The notes beneath the pieces were generated by a model. It did no database searches. It saw only the letters and a program-made list of their open reading frames with translations, and was not told where the DNA came from. From Nocardioides sp. Root240 (GTDB lineage: Bacteria > Actinomycetota > Actinomycetes > Propionibacteriales > Nocardioidaceae): DNA of 64,000 nt. Location: assembly GCF_001428825.1 (NCBI RefSeq), contig NZ_LMIT01000013.1, forward strand, positions 364,917 through 428,916. Reading direction: 5' to 3'. The position numbers and the translations under genes are program-made. Positions within the stretch are counted from its first letter, which is position 1. Each line of letters starts with the position of its first letter. Shown in pieces: positions 44,153 to 64,000 of the stretch.

Positions 44153-44707
44153 GTGGCGTACTCGTTCGAGAAGGTGCAGGCCGACCCGGTCCTGACCACG
44201 GTGCGGCGACTCGAGCAGCGGATCGCCGCTCGGTTCCCCGACCGCGGCCTGCGCCAGGTGGCCGCTGAGCTGGCTCGCCTGGTGGAGCGGGTGCAGACGC
44301 GCACGGACAGCGTGCGTGGCCGTCGTGCCGGCCTGCGGACACTGTCGCGCGGAGCGATGATCGCCGTCGTCCTGGCCACGATCGTGCTGGTGGTGCTCGC
44401 TGTCCGGGCCGCTGCGACCGACGCACCCGACGACCTCGAGTGGGTGCCGCTGGTCGAGAGCGCGGTCAACGACCTGGTGTTCGCGGCGCTGGCGCTGTGG
44501 TTCCTCTGGTCGGTGCCGGAGCGGCTGCAGCGCGACGCACTGCTGAAGCTGCTCCACCGCCTGAGGTCCATGGCCCACATCGTCGACATGCACCAGCTGA
44601 CCAAGGACCCGGAGCGGTTGCGAGCCTCCTTCGACCCGACCGAGGCCAGCGTCGACATGGACCTGACGCCGAACGAGCTGGAGCACTACCTCGACAAGTG
44701 TGCCTAA
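44153..44707 (+). CDS. Two-TM membrane protein of unknown function
   Basis: GTG 44153 gives 184 aa: a soluble helical N-terminus (RRLEQRIAARFPDRGLRQVAAELARLVERVQ), TM1 near residues 64-85 (AMIAVVLATIVLVVLAVRAA), and TM2 near 105-125. The cytoplasmic C-terminal helix contains HRLRSMAHIVDMHQLTKDPERL. Only 15 bp separate it from the divergent methyltransferase start. Similar small proteins with the MAHIVDMHQLTKDP-like segment may form an uncharacterised family, but I do not recognise one. It is the last normal-GC gene before the low-GC segment. Confidence 0.7.
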   Translation: MAYSFEKVQADPVLTTVRRLEQRIAARFPDRGLRQVAAELARLVERVQTRTDSVRGRRAGLRTLSRGAMIAVVLATIVLVVLAVRAAATDAPDDLEWVPLVESAVNDLVFAALALWFLWSVPERLQRDALLKLLHRLRSMAHIVDMHQLTKDPERLRASFDPTEASVDMDLTPNELEHYLDKCA

Positions 44708-44933: not shown

Positions 44934-47900
44934 ATGCGGTTCCAAAGGGTTGAGATCCCCGACGACCTAGTCACCGCCGCCCGTGACGGGCGGATGGTGA
45001 TCTTTGTCGGTGCCGGAGCGTCTCTCGACCCACCGTCTCGACTCCCTGACTTCAGCCAGCTGGTCATCGACATCGGTACGCAGGTGGGGTCGGCGCCCAC
45101 GACGCTCCAACTGGCACGGCCTGATGTCTTCCTAGGCGACCTCACCGACCTCGAGGTCGAGGTCCACTCCCTTGTTGCCAAAGCGATCGATCTACCCGGA
45201 AGCGAGCCGAACCGGCTTCACCACGCCATCATGCGACTGGCCGCCGTACACCAGCCGGTGCGTGTAGTGACAACCAACTACGACCGACATCTCGAGACCG
45301 CCGCCCGAATCGGGTCCCTCGAGGTTGAGATCTTCCGTAGCCCTGCGCTGCCGCTTGGAGACGACTTTGCCGGCATCGTTCATTTGCACGGGGCACTAGA
45401 ACAAAACCCGCAGCACCTGATCCTGACGGACGGGGACTTCGGCCGCGCCTACCTTCGCGAGGCGTGGGCCGCGCGTTTTCTGGAGCGCATGTTCTCCGCC
45501 TTCAGCGTTCTCTTCATCGGATACAGCCACGGCGATGTCGTCATGCAGTACCTAGCCCGGTCCCTCGGACGCGAAGGACGCCGGTACGTGCTGACGAGTG
45601 ACTCGAACAAAGCCGACTGGGCTCGCCTAGGACTCACGGCAATCAGCTATCCAGTCGCTGACAAATCCCATGTCGCGCTCGTAGAGGCGCTCGAGCGGTG
45701 GGCAGAGTTGTCAGCTTGGGGCCGACTCGATCATCGAAGGCGGATCACAGAACTCGTCGGACTTGAGCCGTCAAGTCTCCCCGAGGAGACTTCCTACCTC
45801 AAACAGGTGCTGGCTGACCCGGAACGCGTGCGCTTCTTCACGGAAGCCGCATCGTCACCATCTTGGCTGCAATGGACGGCAACACGTCCCGAGTTCGAAC
45901 ACCTTTTCACTGCGCCACCCAAAACGGACAGTGCCGGGCAAGCGATCGCCCGCAGCCTAACGCGGTGGTTCATCGACAACTTCGCGTGCGTCGAGGAGCA
46001 CTCGCCAGCTGCGCTACGGCTGGTCAGGGACCGTCCTTGGACACTTGAACTGTGGGAAACGTTGGTGCATCGGCTCTTCGCCCAACCGACACCGATCGCT
46101 GACTGGCAGGTGCCATGGTTGCTCTCTGCTCTTCACCGCTCCCCTCAGGGCAGGCACGATCTTCTCGACATGATGCTGGCCGAGAAGGAATGGCAGAGCC
46201 GGCCGCTCTTGGCGCTCACGCTACTCGAGCATCGCACCGAAGCAATCATGCGATCTGGACTCGACTTCGGCGCGAATGACGACGCCCCTCGCTTCGAGGT
46301 AACCCTCACCGGCGATGAGCACTGGCTCAGCGAAGCGTGGAAAAAGGTGTTCACACCGATGCTGGCTGACCACGCGCGAGAGCTTTTCGATCTAGTAGTC
46401 CGGCAGATCCGCGCGAGTTATCGTCTAAACGACTTGCTGCAATCCGGCTTCGACCCGATGGGGTTCGGGCGCTCCGCCATCGAGGCGCACCCTCAGGATG
46501 ACTTCCGAGAGCCACACGACATGTTGATCGATGCCGCTCGCGACTGTCTCGAACGCATCCTTGACATCTGTCCTGGCCAGGCTTCGCGAGACCTTGATCT
46601 GCTGATTGGCGCCCCCGAAACGATTCTCCGCCGACTTGCCGTGCACGGCTGGCGGGTGAAGTCCGATACCAGTGCCGATGCCAAAGTTGGATGGGTCCTT
46701 AGCCAAGGGCTGCTGTACGACGTCAGCCTTCAACACGAGGTCTACCTGCTATTAAAGGACGTACTGCCCGATACCAGTTCCGACGTGCGCGTCAAACTGC
46801 TCGCCGCTGCCGACGCTGGCCCTACGCCTACGGCGGGCGATTCGTCGTCATACCCGCGCTACAACCTGATCGTCTGGTTGCACAAGACCTTGCCGGACGA
46901 TCCCCTCATCACGTCAGCGTTCGAGTCCGTTCAGGAAGAGCATCCGGACTACGCCCCTCGGGAGCATCCCGATCTCAACATGGTCATGACTTCAGGATTC
47001 GTCGAGGACGCTGAACCATTCTCCCAAGAGGAACTACATGCTCTGATTGCCGACGAACCCGGCACCGCGCTGGCACGACTCCGCGAGTTCTCCGAAGCCG
47101 ACGAGTTCAAGCTGACCGGTCCCACATGGACGGGCGCCCTAGCCGCCCTGCGAAGCTGCGTCACGCAGTACCCGCTCGACGGCATGCTGCTCGCCCCACA
47201 TCTCCAGCCCAACGATGACGACATCCGCGGGGCCCTGATTCGAGGCTGGAGTGCCGCAGACCTATCAGCTCACGCTGACGGCACTCTCCCTGATCAGGTC
47301 ATCTCGGTCATTGGCTCGTGGGAACTCGCCCCGGTCAGAAGCCCGGCGGCCAACCTTCTAGCGAGCGGCGGTCGAGCGGACCACCCAACCCGATGGCACG
47401 ACTTCGCCAGTGCCCGCGACCTGGCTCGGCGGCTTTGGCCCGAAGACGATCTTGCGGGGAACGTGACCGGAGGAGGCACGTACCTAGAAGCCATCAATCA
47501 CCCGGCTGGCGATCTCGCGGAGTTCTGGAGCAAGGTCACAGCGGCTCAGTGGGCCAGCCAAGGTGATATGTGGGCCGGTCTACCGCCGCTGATCACTGCC
47601 GAACTGGATCGCATGATCAGTCAGACCGGGCGTAACGGTCTCTTGGCACGCTGCGTGTTAATAACCAAACTTCGCCTGTATTTCGGCGCTGCTCCGGAGT
47701 GGGCAGCGGCTGAACTGCTGCCACTACTGGCGTGGGAGGCCGAAGACACGGGCCAGGTCGCGACCATGTGGCGCACTTTCCTCGATCACGGTCAGTACGA
47801 CGCCGCACTTCTTCGAGCCGGTCTCCTCGAGTCGATGCTCGCGACCTTGGACCATGACGCTGACGTTGACGACGAGCGCTCTATGAAGTCGTTGGGGCGA

Positions 47901-48452
47901 CAACTAGCTACAGTTGCCGTCCGTTTCGACGATCCGCCCACTCCATGGTTGTCCCAGCTGGCCACCAAAGCGTCATCGAAGGTCCGACTGGCTTGGACAC
48001 GATCGGTGGGTCGACACCTACGCGACATGAACGCCGAGGAAGCCCATGCTCAGTGGGCCAGGTGGATCGGCGCCTATTGGCATGACCGCGTGGCATCCGT
48101 CCCGCGACCGTTCGGCTACGACGAGGCCTCCGCTATTGCGGGGTGGGTACTGCATCTGCCTTTGGTTCGAGATGAAGCCGTCGGCCTAGTAGAGGCTGTT
48201 CCATCAGGCTTGGAGCGCGATGACCGAATCCTCGCCGTGATGACAGAGCTCGATCTCACCGCAGAAGCCCCGCTCTGGGCCCGCTATCTAACGCATCTGC
48301 TGCACGGGACTCCCGTCGACGAGCCTTGGGCGATCTGTCACTACTTGGCCGAGATCGTTCCGGCGCTGCGAAACGGCAGCTCCGACCTCTTGGTTGCGCC
48401 CGTGATTGACCAGGCTCTCCGCTTTGGATGCTCATCGGCCCACAACTGGTAG
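44934..48452 (+). CDS. DSR2-like SIR2-domain anti-phage protein (predicted NADase)
   Basis: The 1172-aa protein has an N-terminal SIR2-like domain (about 1-260). It shows FVGAGAS at 24-30 (NAD-binding GAGAS), TTNYD at 113-117 with predicted catalytic Asn115, HLHG with His152, and FIGYSHGD at 194-201. The remaining ~900 residues are helical and repeat-like, as in the DUF4020-bearing DSR2 proteins that deplete NAD+ after sensing phage. Metabolic sirtuins are about 250 aa and carry a Cys4 zinc site that is absent here. GC is visibly lower than in neighbours, suggesting transfer. It is followed 359 bp later by a nuclease-like gene in the same orientation. Which trigger it senses is unknown. Confidence 0.82.
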   Translation: MRFQRVEIPDDLVTAARDGRMVIFVGAGASLDPPSRLPDFSQLVIDIGTQVGSAPTTLQLARPDVFLGDLTDLEVEVHSLVAKAIDLPGSEPNRLHHAIMRLAAVHQPVRVVTTNYDRHLETAARIGSLEVEIFRSPALPLGDDFAGIVHLHGALEQNPQHLILTDGDFGRAYLREAWAARFLERMFSAFSVLFIGYSHGDVVMQYLARSLGREGRRYVLTSDSNKADWARLGLTAISYPVADKSHVALVEALERWAELSAWGRLDHRRRITELVGLEPSSLPEETSYLKQVLADPERVRFFTEAASSPSWLQWTATRPEFEHLFTAPPKTDSAGQAIARSLTRWFIDNFACVEEHSPAALRLVRDRPWTLELWETLVHRLFAQPTPIADWQVPWLLSALHRSPQGRHDLLDMMLAEKEWQSRPLLALTLLEHRTEAIMRSGLDFGANDDAPRFEVTLTGDEHWLSEAWKKVFTPMLADHARELFDLVVRQIRASYRLNDLLQSGFDPMGFGRSAIEAHPQDDFREPHDMLIDAARDCLERILDICPGQASRDLDLLIGAPETILRRLAVHGWRVKSDTSADAKVGWVLSQGLLYDVSLQHEVYLLLKDVLPDTSSDVRVKLLAAADAGPTPTAGDSSSYPRYNLIVWLHKTLPDDPLITSAFESVQEEHPDYAPREHPDLNMVMTSGFVEDAEPFSQEELHALIADEPGTALARLREFSEADEFKLTGPTWTGALAALRSCVTQYPLDGMLLAPHLQPNDDDIRGALIRGWSAADLSAHADGTLPDQVISVIGSWELAPVRSPAANLLASGGRADHPTRWHDFASARDLARRLWPEDDLAGNVTGGGTYLEAINHPAGDLAEFWSKVTAAQWASQGDMWAGLPPLITAELDRMISQTGRNGLLARCVLITKLRLYFGAAPEWAAAELLPLLAWEAEDTGQVATMWRTFLDHGQYDAALLRAGLLESMLATLDHDADVDDERSMKSLGRQLATVAVRFDDPPTPWLSQLATKASSKVRLAWTRSVGRHLRDMNAEEAHAQWARWIGAYWHDRVASVPRPFGYDEASAIAGWVLHLPLVRDEAVGLVEAVPSGLERDDRILAVMTELDLTAEAPLWARYLTHLLHGTPVDEPWAICHYLAEIVPALRNGSSDLLVAPVIDQALRFGCSSAHNW

Positions 48453-48811
48453 GAGGCCTTGATGTCGGGGAAGGTCTGCGTCAGAAACGAACGCTCTACT
48501 CTAGGACTTGGATACCTCAGGAGGGTGCCGTGGCCTGGTCTCTAATGCCGCTCGATCGCGCCCGAGGATAGCCTTACCGCCCCCGCGACAGTCGGCTTTC
48601 GTCGTTCGAGAAAGATTGAGACGGCTCCGTTGTGGTCGTGCGTCTATTCAGTTGAAGACGCTCGCAGCCCGTCAGAAACAGGATGAGGGCCGGCATAGCA
48701 AGCGACTCGCTCGCGACTTCACCGGCGTGTGTGCGGGAGTCTGGGCAGAAGCGAGCAGGTCGAGCTCGAGAACGTCATGCTTCTGTCGGAGCCCCGGATC
48801 ACAATCCACCC
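48453..48811 (+). other. 359-bp intergenic stretch between the SIR2 and nuclease-like genes
   Basis: No convincing gene, RNA or palindrome was found here. Short frames crossing it have atypical codon use and no recognisable protein. It is long for this gene-dense window, so it could carry the promoter of the downstream gene or the remains of a deleted gene. Confidence 0.5.
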
Positions 48812-50962
48812 ATGTCCCCGCCCCGACGTGCCCGTCCCGGTCAACGGCGCCTCCGGCCCGACAATCCGCCGTCGTACCTCGACAACAGGTGGCAGTACGA
48901 GCTCGAGCGGTACGTCGCCGGAGAGTTCTCGCCCCGCTCGTGGTTCGAGTGGCTGACCTCGTTCCGGCGAGCGGCCGAGGAGGCCGCCGCTGATCTCCCG
49001 CATGCGTGTGCAGAACTGCGTTCTCTGCTGGACTCCGTCGACCCGATTGCCATGTACGGAGCGATGGACGTCTATGACGCCATGCGACGGTCGCACATGC
49101 CAGGACCGGCGAACTTCGGCAGTGACGCGATGGTCGAGCTGATGGCTGGATTCGTCGTGAGTTCCGACGAGATCTCGATGCTCCCCCGGATCGATGAGCG
49201 ATTCGATCCCTGGCTGGTCCAGGAGTGCGACGCGCTGCTCCAGCGGATTGCGAACCTGCGTTACCTGGCTAGCACGGCGAAGTACGTCGAGTCCGATCCG
49301 AAGGGCGGCGCGGGTCTCCGCCGGATGATCGAGCTGGAACACAACTTCGACCGCATGGCGGGCTTCGATCCTCATGTCAGGCGCGTCGCGGTTGAAGTCC
49401 TCGGTCGAGTGGATGACCGCGCCAAGGTCGAACTGGGGTTTAAGTTGACGGAGTCGCTCCGCTTCGCGCACCTCTACAACCAGGTGCGTATCCGGCACGC
49501 ACGTCGTACGGACGCCTATCTGGCGGAGGCATATCCCTCCCCGGCCGCCGACGAACCGCCTGCCGTCCAGGAGTCGTGGATGGTGGGTCACTTCGTCCTC
49601 TGGGCGCTGAACGCGAACGCACCCCTGGAAGGTGGCGTTGTGGATGAAGCACTGGCAGAGAACCTCGGACTCGACCCCGACGCTTTCCAATCGGTGATCG
49701 CATCGCTCAGCACCCGGGTCGGGACGGTGGAGCCGGATCAGATCCACACCGACAACCCGGTTCGGGTCCGACCGATCGTAAAGCTGAGTAGTGGCGAGTG
49801 GATGTGGCCTCGCCCGGTCGACTTCGTGCACGTTGCACTTGAATGGGCTCACGGTGCCGTCACGCCGCATCCTCGGCTCGTCTCAGCACTCGACAAGGCG
49901 CGTCAGCGAACCGCTGAGGACCTGACCGAGGAACTGCTTCGCGAGGTCTTCGGGGAACGCGTGTACCGATCGGTCACCTACCCGGTCGAGCAGTCCGACG
50001 CCGAGGTCGACGTTCTGGTTCGACTCCCTGGAGCACTCCTGGTTGTCGAGTGCAAGGGCGGTCGAATCAGCCGGGAAGGGCGCCGCGGCGCACCGCACCG
50101 TGTCGACCGCCACATCAAGGACATCGTGGAGCGGGCCAACGATCAGAACGGCCGAACGATCAGGGCAATCCGCGACGGCGCTCCATTCGTCGACGCCCGC
50201 GGGCGGTCGCTCGACCTCGACGCGAATAGCGTGATCCTGCCGATCACCGTCACTCTCGATCGTGTCGATCCCTTTGGCGCCTACCTCGGCTTTGCGGATG
50301 CCGAATCCGGTGTCGAGCGATCGTGGATCATCAGCCTGGCCGACCTGATCATGCTCGCCGAGTTGCTCCCGTCCCCGAGCGACTTCGTCGCCTACGTCGC
50401 GAAACGCCGCCAGATGCTGCGCGACGAAGTGTTGGTGTACGTCGAAGCGGATGCGCTCGGCGCGTGGTTCGAAGACAGGTTGTCCTCCATCGCAGCAGTC
50501 AGTGATCCCCACAACGATCGAGTGACCCGCTTGTTGAGGGAGACCTCCGAATGGATGAACGACTACTACGCCATCGAGGCACTGAGGCGTTCGGATGCGC
50601 CACAGGACGAGGTCGACGACTATCTACGCGACCACCCGATGGGCGGACAGAAGCCAGCCACTCGGCTTCCATCCGCCGTAATCCGGTCCCTCGATGGGCT
50701 TCTTCAACAAGAAGACCCCACGTGGCTTGCGGCCACCTGTGCAGCACTCGAGGTCCGGCCAAGCGCGTGGAAGCCGGTACGGCGACTGCTTGACGCAGTC
50801 GATGGCGGACCACCGACCGGGCGCCGGAAGTCGCGTCAGATGCGGCGCGCCGCGAGCGGCTATGAAGTCGACGGCCGGGTCACCCTGACGATCGATGTCG
50901 CAAGCACAGGCGAACTGTCATTGCAGGTGGCGCCGACACGTCAGGGTCTCAACGTCCGTTAG
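48812..50962 (+). CDS. PD-(D/E)xK nuclease-like protein, possible defence effector
   Basis: ATG 48812 is preferred; the open frame extends upstream to 48683 but the extension is not protein-like, and no strong ribosome-binding site was found. The 716-aa protein has a helical N-terminal half of unknown family (about 1-350). A nuclease-like core at about 365-420 carries TEELLREVFGERVYRSV, then E398-V-D400, and the strand LLVVECKGG with E413 and K415. That D-x12-E-x-K arrangement is the PD-(D/E)xK active site seen in Mrr- and NERD-like nucleases. A further ~290 residues lack known motifs. It lies in the same lower-GC segment as the SIR2 gene. It overlaps the paaG-like stop by 4 bp (convergent). 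The partner role is inferred. Confidence 0.7.
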   Translation: MSPPRRARPGQRRLRPDNPPSYLDNRWQYELERYVAGEFSPRSWFEWLTSFRRAAEEAAADLPHACAELRSLLDSVDPIAMYGAMDVYDAMRRSHMPGPANFGSDAMVELMAGFVVSSDEISMLPRIDERFDPWLVQECDALLQRIANLRYLASTAKYVESDPKGGAGLRRMIELEHNFDRMAGFDPHVRRVAVEVLGRVDDRAKVELGFKLTESLRFAHLYNQVRIRHARRTDAYLAEAYPSPAADEPPAVQESWMVGHFVLWALNANAPLEGGVVDEALAENLGLDPDAFQSVIASLSTRVGTVEPDQIHTDNPVRVRPIVKLSSGEWMWPRPVDFVHVALEWAHGAVTPHPRLVSALDKARQRTAEDLTEELLREVFGERVYRSVTYPVEQSDAEVDVLVRLPGALLVVECKGGRISREGRRGAPHRVDRHIKDIVERANDQNGRTIRAIRDGAPFVDARGRSLDLDANSVILPITVTLDRVDPFGAYLGFADAESGVERSWIISLADLIMLAELLPSPSDFVAYVAKRRQMLRDEVLVYVEADALGAWFEDRLSSIAAVSDPHNDRVTRLLRETSEWMNDYYAIEALRRSDAPQDEVDDYLRDHPMGGQKPATRLPSAVIRSLDGLLQQEDPTWLAATCAALEVRPSAWKPVRRLLDAVDGGPPTGRRKSRQMRRAASGYEVDGRVTLTIDVASTGELSLQVAPTRQGLNVR

Positions 50963-58920: not shown

Positions 58921-60966
58921 GTGAGCGCACTGCTCGAGAGCTACGTGGCGGGCAGTTGGTACGCCGCGCCCGACGAGGGCGAGGCCGTCCTCGATGCCAT
59001 CACCGGCGAGGAGGTTGCGCGCGTCTCGGCCCGGGGCCTCGACTACGCCGCGATGGTGGCCCACGGCCGGGACGTCGGCGGCCCGGCGCTACGCGCGCTC
59101 ACCTTCCACGAGCGGGCCGGTCTGATCAAGGCCCTGGCCAAGCACCTCGGCCAGTTCAAGGACGAGTTCTACGCGCTGTCCGCCCGCACGGGCGCGACCC
59201 AGCGCGACTCGATGGTGGACATCGACGGCGGCATCGGGACCTTGTTCTCCTACGCGAGCAAGGGCTCCCGCGAGCTGCCGAACGACACCGTCGTCCTCGA
59301 CGGTTCCCTCGAGCGGCTGAGCAAGGGCGGCACCTTCGTCGGGCAGCACATCTACACCTCACGCACGGGCGTCGCGGTGCAGATCAACGCGTTCAACTTC
59401 CCCGTGTGGGGCATGCTCGAGAAGCTCGCTCCGGCGTTCCTCGCCGGCGCTCCGAGCATCGTGAAGCCGGCCAGCCAGACGGCCTACCTCACGGAGGCCG
59501 TGGTCCGCCGGATCGTGGAGTCCGGCATCCTCCCCGAGGGATCGATCCAGCTGATCAGCGGCAGCGCCGGCACGCTCCTCGATGAGCTCAGCGAGCAGGA
59601 CTCCGTCGCGTTCACCGGCTCCGCCCACACTGCCGAGATCCTGCGCAACCACCCGTCGGTACTGCGCCGCGGCGTGCACCTGGGCGTCGAGGCAGACTCC
59701 CTGAACTGCTCGATCCTCGGTCTCGACGTCACGACGGACGCGCCGGAGTTCGACCTCTTCGTCAAGGGCGTCGTCGCAGAGATGACCGTCAAGGCCGGCC
59801 AGAAGTGCACGGCGATCCGCCGGGCGATCGTCCCCGAGAGCCTCGCCGACGCCGTCATCGAGGCCATCAGCGCGCGGCTGTCCAAGGTCGTCGTCGGCAA
59901 CCCGGCCGAGGAGACAGTCCGCATGGGCGCCCTGGCGAGCCTGGGCCAGCGCGACGAGGTCCGCAAGGCGATCGAGGCACTGCGCTCCAGCGCCGACATC
60001 GTCTTCGGCGACCCCGACAAGGTCGAGGTGGTCGGTGCAGACGCCGAGTCCGGCGCCTTCCTCTCCCCCGTGCTGCTGCGCGCCCGTCCCGACGCGACCG
60101 AGCCCCACGACGTCGAGCCGTTCGGCCCGGTGAGCACAGTCCTCACCTACAGCACGACCGCCGAGGCCGTCGAGCTCGCCGCACGCGGCAAGGGCAGCCT
60201 GGCCGCGTCGCTCGTCACCCACGACCCGGAGATCGCTCGTGCGGTGACCCTCGGCCTCGCCCCGTGGCACGGTCGTGTGCTGGTCCTCGACCGCGACGAC
60301 GCCGCGGAGTCGACCGGTCACGGCAGCCCGCTCCCCGTGCTGGTTCACGGCGGTCCGGGCCGCGCCGGTGGCGGCGAGGAGCTCGGCGGCATCCGCGGCG
60401 TCCTGCACCACATGCAGCGCACGGCCATCCAGGCCTCGCCGGACATGCTCACGGCGATCACCGGCCGATGGACTGCGGGCGCTCAGCGGATCGACGACGC
60501 GGTGCACCCGTTCCGCAAGAGCCTCGCGGAGCTGCGGATCGGCGACAGCGTCGTGTCCGATCGCCGTACGGTGAGCCTCGCTGACATCGACCACTTTGCG
60601 GAGTTCACGGGCGACACGTTCTACGCCCACACCGACCCCGAGGCCGCGGCCGCGAGCCCGCTGTTCGGCGGCATCGTCGCCCACGGCTACCTCGTCGTGT
60701 CGCTCGCCGCGGGCCTGTTCGTCGAGCCGAACCCGGGCCCGGTCCTGGCCAACTTCGGTGTCGACAACCTGCGCTTCCTCACCCCGGTGAAGGCGGAGGA
60801 CTCCATCCAGGTGACGCTCACCGTCAAGCAGGTCACCCCGCGCACCTCGGCCGACTACGGCGAGGTCCGCTGGGACGCCGTCGTGACCAACCAGGACGAC
60901 GCGCCGGTCGCGACCTACGACGTGCTCACCCTGGTCGCCAAGACCTGGCCTGCCACCACCAACTGA
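58921..60966 (+). CDS. paaZ: Bifunctional oxepin-CoA hydrolase / aldehyde dehydrogenase PaaZ
   Basis: GTG 58921 is chosen because AGGGAGA lies just upstream and the family N-terminus (SALLESYVAGSWY) begins there. The product is 681 aa. Residues 1-520 form an aldehyde dehydrogenase with NAFNFPVWG, GSA-type cofactor loops and catalytic Cys in AGQKCTAIRR. Residues about 540-681 form a MaoC-type (R)-hydratase domain (DIDHFAEFTGDTFYAHTD, FGGIVAHGYLVVS). It opens oxepin-CoA and oxidises the resulting aldehyde to 3-oxo-5,6-dehydrosuberyl-CoA. It is transcribed divergently from paaA. Confidence 0.96.
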   Translation: MSALLESYVAGSWYAAPDEGEAVLDAITGEEVARVSARGLDYAAMVAHGRDVGGPALRALTFHERAGLIKALAKHLGQFKDEFYALSARTGATQRDSMVDIDGGIGTLFSYASKGSRELPNDTVVLDGSLERLSKGGTFVGQHIYTSRTGVAVQINAFNFPVWGMLEKLAPAFLAGAPSIVKPASQTAYLTEAVVRRIVESGILPEGSIQLISGSAGTLLDELSEQDSVAFTGSAHTAEILRNHPSVLRRGVHLGVEADSLNCSILGLDVTTDAPEFDLFVKGVVAEMTVKAGQKCTAIRRAIVPESLADAVIEAISARLSKVVVGNPAEETVRMGALASLGQRDEVRKAIEALRSSADIVFGDPDKVEVVGADAESGAFLSPVLLRARPDATEPHDVEPFGPVSTVLTYSTTAEAVELAARGKGSLAASLVTHDPEIARAVTLGLAPWHGRVLVLDRDDAAESTGHGSPLPVLVHGGPGRAGGGEELGGIRGVLHHMQRTAIQASPDMLTAITGRWTAGAQRIDDAVHPFRKSLAELRIGDSVVSDRRTVSLADIDHFAEFTGDTFYAHTDPEAAAASPLFGGIVAHGYLVVSLAAGLFVEPNPGPVLANFGVDNLRFLTPVKAEDSIQVTLTVKQVTPRTSADYGEVRWDAVVTNQDDAPVATYDVLTLVAKTWPATTN

Positions 60967-62210: not shown

Positions 62211-64000
62211 CTAGTCCTGGACGAGATCTGGCATGAGGATGCGCTCGTAGCCCAGCAGGTTCGAGATCCCGGACTCAGGCTCCGAAACACCGACGCTGAT
62301 CGGAACGGCCCCGGTCGGCAGATCGAACCATCTACGGAAAGCGTCGGCATCCATCCACGAGATTGCGGCGTCTTGACTGCTCTTGGCCGAGTCCGATTCT
62401 AGGGAGACACGCACAACCCCAGCGCCGCCACTCTCAGCGGCAAGGCGCAGTTCGTACATGGTCCACTCAACGCCAATCGGCCGGTCCCGCTCACGCTCGA
62501 ATCGCAAGTAGACGTCTTGTCCGAGGGCTCGTCCCGGAATGGTCGGGAGCAGGCCAGACGCGATGAACGCAGTCGCGTCGTCATAGGCCCTCTGGTGGGA
62601 TTCATTCAACTGCGTCGCCAAGTCCTCGAAGTTCGCAGGAGCCACGTATTGGCAGCGCCAGGTCTGGGCGCGGTTGAACGCTGTGAACCGCCGCTTGGTG
62701 AGCATCAGGATGTCCAGCACCGGATTCTTCGGCGCCGAGGTTCGGGCGTTGATTGCTGTCAGCCTCTCGCCTGTGGCGAGATCGATTGCTCGCAGCAACT
62801 CTCGCCGGTGCGGCAAATCAGCGATGGCCCCCGTCCAATCGACCTCTACAACGCTTGGCTCACGTCCTCGCACCTCGCCGACGATCACCCAACCATCAGC
62901 AGCGGCGAAGGCGTAGCCCCATGCCTCGTCGACATCGAGCGCGTCCCGCTCAAGCGGAGAAGCAAGTTCGCGGACCACGCTCCATGCCGACAGGCTCAGT
63001 TGTAGTTCTTCCGTGTAGTTCGCGACAGGGGCCAACAGAGACTGGGCAGCTCCAGAAACTCCGGTATGGAAGCTGGTTCCAAGAACGAGTTCAGCCGCAT
63101 TACTGAATCGCTTCGACGGCAAGGGCGCCCTGGCGGGCCAATCATCCACTCGTCCGACGCTGAGCCGCTCGCCAAACGCGAATGTGTCAGCGGCCATCCC
63201 CGCTAAGGCACCACGAGCGAGGTCCCGCTGCTCGGGAGTGGCGAAGTTGACGGCAAGGTAAAGGCCGATGTCGTCAATCCGAGGTCGCAGAAGGAGGCCC
63301 GGTCGTTCTCGGTGGAGGCCAGCGAGCACGCGCCCCTCGTCATCCATCTCCCGATCGAACTCGAACTCTTTGAGGACCGTGGAGAGGTTTGTGATGGTGG
63401 GTCGGCCGACTCCGTAGTGCGCCGACTCGAACGGGCCTGCCGTAGAGAGAAGGTGGCCCTTGATGACAGCCGATGCGATTGACCTAACCGGAACGCGCTC
63501 GAGCCGAGCAGAGATGCGACCAATGACCGCGGCATGCGCTGCCGGCGATGGCCACCAGGGGACAATGATCGTCGCGTCCTTGTTCGATTCCGACACCGCG
63601 AATCCTCGTTCCTCGAGCTCTTCAACAGAGTCGTTGGAAACCGATTCAGCCAGCGGAAACCGAGTTCGCGCATAGCCCACTGCGTAGGACGCATCCAGTG
63701 CGCCTTGATTGTCGCCGTCAGTCAGCTCAATGAGCGCACCTAAGACGGCGAGCGCACCGTCCGACAACGTGAGCGAGTCAGCCAAACCCGCGTGTAGGAG
63801 GAGTTGGTCTCCCGCCAGGGGCGCCACCGTGACCAGATCCATTCCGTTCTGGACCGATAGCGCTCCGTTCCTGGCGACGTTGGAAACGATCGCTTCAACT
63901 GCGATCCCCGCCGCGCGTTGACGTTGCGACTCGGACAAGGTGGCCGCCCAGATCGCCCTCCGGCCAAGTTCATGAAACCAAGGTCTGCCGCGAACGGAGA
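62211..64000 (-). CDS. Large protein of unknown function, 5' end probably outside the window
   Basis: Stop at 62211. A TTG at 63938 would give 575 aa, but the same frame stays open and protein-like to the window edge (about 20 further residues, GRPWFHELGRRAIWAATLSE), so the true start may lie beyond. No TM segments or signal peptide. The N-terminal part (about 1-200) is helical. A middle region has FSNAAELVLGTSFHTG and a C-terminal part has YVAPANFEDLATQLNESHQRAYDD and VEWTMYELRL. GC is visibly lower than in the paa cluster. No family was recognised; it could belong to an accessory or defence region continuing past the window. Confidence 0.6.
   Translation of the reverse strand, partial: SVRGRPWFHELGRRAIWAATLSESQRQRAAGIAVEAIVSNVARNGALSVQNGMDLVTVAPLAGDQLLLHAGLADSLTLSDGALAVLGALIELTDGDNQGALDASYAVGYARTRFPLAESVSNDSVEELEERGFAVSESNKDATIIVPWWPSPAAHAAVIGRISARLERVPVRSIASAVIKGHLLSTAGPFESAHYGVGRPTITNLSTVLKEFEFDREMDDEGRVLAGLHRERPGLLLRPRIDDIGLYLAVNFATPEQRDLARGALAGMAADTFAFGERLSVGRVDDWPARAPLPSKRFSNAAELVLGTSFHTGVSGAAQSLLAPVANYTEELQLSLSAWSVVRELASPLERDALDVDEAWGYAFAAADGWVIVGEVRGREPSVVEVDWTGAIADLPHRRELLRAIDLATGERLTAINARTSAPKNPVLDILMLTKRRFTAFNRAQTWRCQYVAPANFEDLATQLNESHQRAYDDATAFIASGLLPTIPGRALGQDVYLRFERERDRPIGVEWTMYELRLAAESGGAGVVRVSLESDSAKSSQDAAISWMDADAFRRWFDLPTGAVPISVGVSEPESGISNLLGYERILMPDLVQD

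Follow-up and report, generated by a model that had tools for sequence, protein, structure and literature searches.

Could a large, GC-poor gene that adjoins a phenylacetate gene cluster in Nocardioides encode a defense sirtuin, and to which of the characterized families would such a protein be closest? The gene lies at positions 44934–48452 (+) of the window, by which we mean the whole 64,000-nucleotide stretch of Nocardioides sp. Root240 DNA that was analyzed. It starts with ATG and encodes a SIR2 plus α-solenoid (DUF4020) protein of 1172 amino acids that falls into a sister family of Dsr1.

The SIR2 domain and the predicted α-solenoid

We observed a complete SIR2 NAD site in the N-terminal part of the protein. 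The SIR2 NADase domain, with its Rossmann core, covers approximately residues 6–262 (44949–45719, +), as indicated by Pfam SIR2_2 (2e-19), the AF2 model and the PDB fold match. It contains the NAD-binding loop GAGAS (residues 26–30; codons 45009–45023, +), the predicted catalytic Asn115 in TTNYD (45276–45278, +), the predicted catalytic His152 in HLHG (45387–45389, +) and the segment G196–D201. The initial annotation had placed this open reading frame and its motifs exactly (FVGAGAS at F24–S30, TTNYD with N115, HLHG with H152 and GYSHGD at 196–201). The start codon at 44934 is supported by the alignment of M1 with the starts of the relatives, and full-length conservation across dozens of relatives excludes a chance reading frame. 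Furthermore, the protein did not match Pfam SIR2 (PF02146), and it has no four-cysteine zinc module of the kind found in classical deacylases, as its first cysteine is residue 352. On both counts, the protein differs from a canonical sirtuin deacylase.

The active site is invariant among the relatives. Among the aligned relatives that have no gap at the position, Asn115 is kept in 78 of 78 and His152 in 79 of 79, and G26 and S30 are kept in every aligned row having those positions. Asn115 and His152 also line up with the two residues, Asn and His, replaced by Ala in chain 9v12, a solved SIR2 NADase. On the other hand, the mean column entropy is 2.49 bits in residues 271–1172, compared with 1.81 bits in residues 1–270.

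The AF2 model (mean pLDDT 92.2) consists of a Rossmann-type SIR2 domain followed by almost nothing but helices to the end. The approximately 900 helical residues that had been read from the sequence are thus present in the model, which is almost wholly helical past about residue 270, and so is the two-part design, a SIR2 domain and then a long helical half, for which the protein had been likened to DSR2. The C-terminal α-solenoid (residues 271–1172; 45744–48449, +), defined from the AF2 model, is presumably the sensor. Within it, residues 1002–1092 (47937–48209, +) match DUF4020 (PF13212) with a Pfam score of 32.3 bits against a cut-off of 22.7.

In the PDB fold search, the top matches were DSR2, KomC and ThsA, with DSR2 in the lead (E 2.7e-9). 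The SIR2 domain alone matched the DSR2 and KomC chains with TMt values of 0.65–0.75. The comparison of an AlphaFold model with known folds that had been proposed as a check on the SIR2 assignment returned a sirtuin fold. The full-length TM to DSR2 is only 0.21–0.26, which means that the superhelices differ or flex. A text search of the literature found no solved DSR1 structure, and this may be why DSR2 leads the fold search.

Relationship to Dsr1, DSR2 and other SIR2 effectors

Which of the known families, then, is the nearest? The PADLOC Dsr1 model matched the window protein at 1.8e-49, compared with 0.06 for the Dsr2 model, and the Dsr1-model matches form three collinear stretches. Similarly, the NCBIfam Dsr1 model (NF041818) gave 207.8 bits, below its equivalog cut-off of 1400. 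Six other members of the clade scored 198–315 bits and the true E. coli Dsr1 1674, so that the tested clade members fall far below the cut-off and would not be named Dsr1 by NCBI's model. HMM–HMM comparison of the close clade with four Dsr1 proteins aligned 1070 columns (E 5.6e-47), and the C-terminal halves alone aligned with Dsr1 over 822 columns (E 5.7e-45) at 15% identity. These results indicate that the sensor half shares ancestry with its counterpart in Dsr1 and has diverged strongly from it; together with the higher column entropy of this half, they agree with the diverged C-terminal sensor that the initial annotation had expected.

Compared with the members of DSR1 (NF041818) from E. 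coli, Pantoea, Nitrosococcus and Shewanella, the window protein is collinear over its full length, has the same SIR2 motifs with the Dsr1-type catalytic Asn and His intact (N115 and H152), is encoded by a single gene and, like DSR1, belongs to a group often found on plasmids or prophage-like contigs. It differs in its identity to DSR1, which is 20% overall and 16% after residue 270, in its length (1172 versus about 1265 amino acids) and in the presence of DUF4020. The latter was matched by Pfam in the window protein and three other scanned clade members, L101 falling below the curated cut-off, but was unmatched in five further scanned proteins, three of Dsr1 and two other SIR2 proteins. No mention of DUF4020 was found in the literature searched.

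The window protein had first been described as DSR2-like, a name that was not borne out, because the match to Dsr1 spans the entire protein and that to DSR2 the SIR2 domain only. The NCBIfam Dsr2 model (NF041819) gave 9.9 bits, below its cut-off, on residues 87–171 only; both Dsr2 models, from PADLOC and NCBIfam, gave 9–10 bits on the SIR2 domain only. The match of the family profile to solved DSR2 chains was confined to residues 6–125, and the C-terminal half had no detectable sequence match to DSR2. Membership in DSR2 was rejected on these model scores and the limited profile match. What is shared with the Bacillus subtilis DSR2 (8wyb, 8z18) is the SIR2 domain plus long α-solenoid and the SIR2 fold (TMt ~0.65–0.71), but not detectable sequence homology past the SIR2 domain. 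KomC, ThsA and other SIR2 NADase effectors have the catalytic Asn and His and the SIR2 fold in common with the window protein, but the latter lacks a SLOG domain or a recurrent partner, and its sensor half is a long α-solenoid. It is not a Thoeris ThsA either, as the α-solenoid stands in place of the C-terminal SLOG and no ThsB-like partner family recurs.

In a tree of 78 proteins, the window protein fell into a clade of 72 rows that is split from Dsr1 with full support, and the Dsr1 rows formed their own fully supported clade with the window protein outside; the tree is rooted at the midpoint only, and long branches meet where Dsr1 and the sister clade join. The window protein matches the plan of the clade, SIR2_2 plus a C-terminal DUF4020 in about 1170 amino acids. 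Its nearest relatives in the tree are two Nocardioides proteins and one from an Intrasporangium that falls among them, and a sequence from Mycobacterium clusters with those of Janibacter and Phycicoccus. This mixing of host families points to horizontal spread. Judged by its sequence, the window protein belongs to a sister branch of DSR1, broad and for the most part unstudied, and not to DSR2.

How widespread is this branch? A single-sequence scan of genome contigs returned no relatives, and a profile scan then confirmed at least 117 in GTDB genomes, mainly in Actinobacteria, with others in Chloroflexota, Gemmatimonadota, Planctomycetota, Latescibacterota, Thermodesulfobacteriota, Pseudomonadota and Bacillota. 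Its occurrence is sporadic: 5 of 395 sampled genomes of the class, the window's own included, carry the gene, and it is missing from most genomes of the same genus. Phage records gave no match to the window protein. IMG/VR gave one near-full-length clade member and otherwise mostly Dsr1-type partial matches. The near-full-length match (L159, 5001–8261) is on a predicted viral contig of 52.8 kb, and the gene may thus travel on a phage or prophage. The genome of the window encodes another SIR2_2 protein in an open frame of 679 codons (L188; G000 contig C1, 144755–145189).

The acquired segment and its genomic surroundings

The composition of the gene points to foreign DNA. Its GC content is 0.620, compared with 0.716 for the window when the two inserted genes are left out, and its GC3 is 0.70, compared with 0.85–0.97 in neighboring genes. 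Only 5 of 605 same-length sliding windows are equally low in GC, and all five overlap the sirtuin gene. The hand counts on which a foreign composition had originally been proposed, 37 of 60 at 45181–45240 and 48 of 60 at 59041–59100 (in paaZ), are exact. A second GC-poor stretch (0.62) lies at 62211–63998 (−) of the window, with an open reading frame of 575–595 amino acids that matched nothing in Pfam or PADLOC.

The left edge of the acquired DNA lies at 44695/44696, within the 3′ portion of the gene for a conserved membrane protein. Four sibling genomes align with the window (79–81%) up to 44695 and no further, so 238 bases of non-collinear DNA precede the sirtuin gene. To the left of this edge are a methyltransferase-like gene of the tRNA/rRNA uracil type and the membrane-protein gene (44201–44707, +, with its start upstream of 44201; weak Hpt match), whose product has ~242 amino acids in the siblings. 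In the window, its frame breaks off after ...LEHYLD and closes with KCA and a stop codon, whereas the siblings run on for ~55–65 residues. To the right, the non-collinear segment extends via a NERD-type gene into the phenylacetate cluster, which is not adjacent to the methyltransferase gene in the sibling genomes.

The NERD-domain protein (48812–50962, +) has a PD-(D/E)XK-like motif (SDAEVDVLV...LLVVECKGG). A search of 296 other genomes of the class did not find it, not even in G078, where the SIR2 protein has a relative. On this absence, and because no neighbor recurs in the SIR2 clade, we consider it unlikely that the sirtuin and the NERD protein downstream form a two-gene system. A sibling genome (L035, 6243–7994) has a homologue with 29% identity in its paaG flank, and the NERD protein is possibly a stand-alone defense nuclease.

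Between the sirtuin and NERD genes, we found a paaG remnant (48573–48644, −), the degraded last 23 codons of an enoyl-CoA hydratase gene. Its sequence, THDHNGAVSIFLERRKPTVAGAV followed by a stop codon and with another in front, is oriented like the intact paaG ending at 50959. It matched the paaG ends of other Nocardioides in tblastn (E 6e-6 to 1e-4); aligned as DNA, it was not significant against shuffled sequences, although the protein-level match was significant. The remnant may be a displaced paaG end left by the insertion of the NERD segment.

Could the paaG flank be a site where defense genes accumulate? The two nearest relatives of the phenylacetate cluster, both from sibling species, carry such genes just past the paaG stop: one (G535) has a CBASS-type CD-NTase cyclase, Schlafen AlbA_2 and DUF4379 genes, and the other (G585) has Wadjet JetC, a Lamassu LmuB-like ATPase and another SIR2_2 protein. 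In the flanks of the more distant cluster relatives (G528, G554 and G561), no defense genes were recognized. The paaG 3′ flank thus varies among related genomes, with defense-type genes in three of the six compared (the window, G535 and G585), and to the right of the NERD gene (50959) it is a candidate defense hotspot. A different SIR2_2 protein (L036, 5350–7044, −; 564 amino acids; Pfam 6.6e-10), with weak PADLOC matches, adjoins an LmuB-like ATPase.

Similar proteins had been expected in defense islands, and several relatives do adjoin defense genes, a result that is qualitative because the PADLOC-scanned loci were partly hand-picked after a first look. The neighbors are Hachiman HamA/HamB (L010), ABC-3C and PDC-M68B together with HipA and Fic (L011), Gabija GajA/GajB (L087), a type I restriction-modification system and PDC-S11 (L080), and Dpd/DISARM-like genes, namely DpdE/DrmD-like and DrmMI-like (L094); a weak Mrr_cat match lies near one relative (L009), and Shedu adjoins a more distant SIR2 relative (L077). 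Four close relatives (L101, L084, L081 and L085) had no obvious defense neighbors. Across 81 loci, no neighbor family recurs in more than 9, and the system therefore appears to be single-gene. The recurring neighbors, as judged by eye, resemble integrases, relaxases, ABC-type ATPases, helicases and transposases.

Proposed mechanism and alternative explanations

The window protein is very probably a defense NADase, as predicted. We favor, with a probability of about 0.83, a DSR1-superfamily NADase that acts against phages as a single protein and in which sensing of a phage by the solenoid leads to NAD+ depletion. The long HEAT-like α-solenoid would keep the enzyme silent and act as the sensor; it would bind a product of the phage, most probably a protein like the trigger of DSR2, upon which the NAD pocket would open and the N-terminal SIR2 domain (N115/H152) would hydrolyze NAD+, so that NAD+ would be depleted and phage multiplication would stop. 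The SIR2 NADase of DSR2 is set free when the C-terminal domain recognizes a phage protein, and the protein must assemble to be active (PMC10973363). By analogy, NAD+ depletion is the expected output of the window protein. We infer the NADase activity, the phage as the trigger, the protein nature of this trigger, and cell death versus recovery as the outcome. According to a review, DSR1 inhibits phage without cell death (PMC10952713); as DSR1 is the nearest tested relative, the abortive infection named in the initial annotation is only one possible outcome for the window protein. What speaks against an anti-phage NADase of the DSR1 superfamily is that the NF041818 cut-off was missed by a wide margin, that several close relatives have no obvious defense neighbors, and that the immediate neighbors, the NERD protein and paaG, are not known defense systems.

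What else could the protein be? Other SIR2 systems respond to plasmids, several relatives adjoin relaxase or integrase genes, and Wadjet, an anti-plasmid system, stands in the paaG flank of G585; nevertheless, defense against plasmids or other mobile elements, instead of or besides phages, is unlikely, as the nearest tested families, DSR1 and DSR2, act on phages (PMC10973363, PMC10952713). Less likely still is a true DSR2 relative that is triggered by phage tail-tube protein and acts by abortive infection. The lead of the DSR2 chains among the full-length fold matches and the shared SIR2 plus α-solenoid plan would fit it, but the Dsr2 models and the profile reach only into the SIR2 domain, the full-length TM is low, and HMM–HMM comparison and the Dsr1 models give kinship with Dsr1 over the full length. 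We regard as highly improbable a cellular NAD-dependent deacylase or metabolic regulator that lies in acquired DNA by chance; the SIR2 fold and the adjoining phenylacetate cluster would suit such an enzyme, whereas the missing zinc module, the unmatched PF02146 and the absence of the gene from most same-genus genomes do not.

Returning to the anti-phage NADase of the DSR1 superfamily, what does it mean for the family? That the window protein is a defense sirtuin is well supported, and it represents a widespread variant of the known DSR1 type. We give even odds to a further reading, in which the clade, common in Actinobacteria and present in several phyla, is a distinct, experimentally unexplored class of defense sirtuins with a solenoid that recognizes phage products outside the range of DSR1 and DSR2. 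With its uniform length, invariant active site and fast-changing solenoid, the clade offers a test bed for how solenoid sensors choose their phage triggers, and it could reveal whether SIR2 NADases protect Actinobacteria, including the mycobacteria, where relatives occur.
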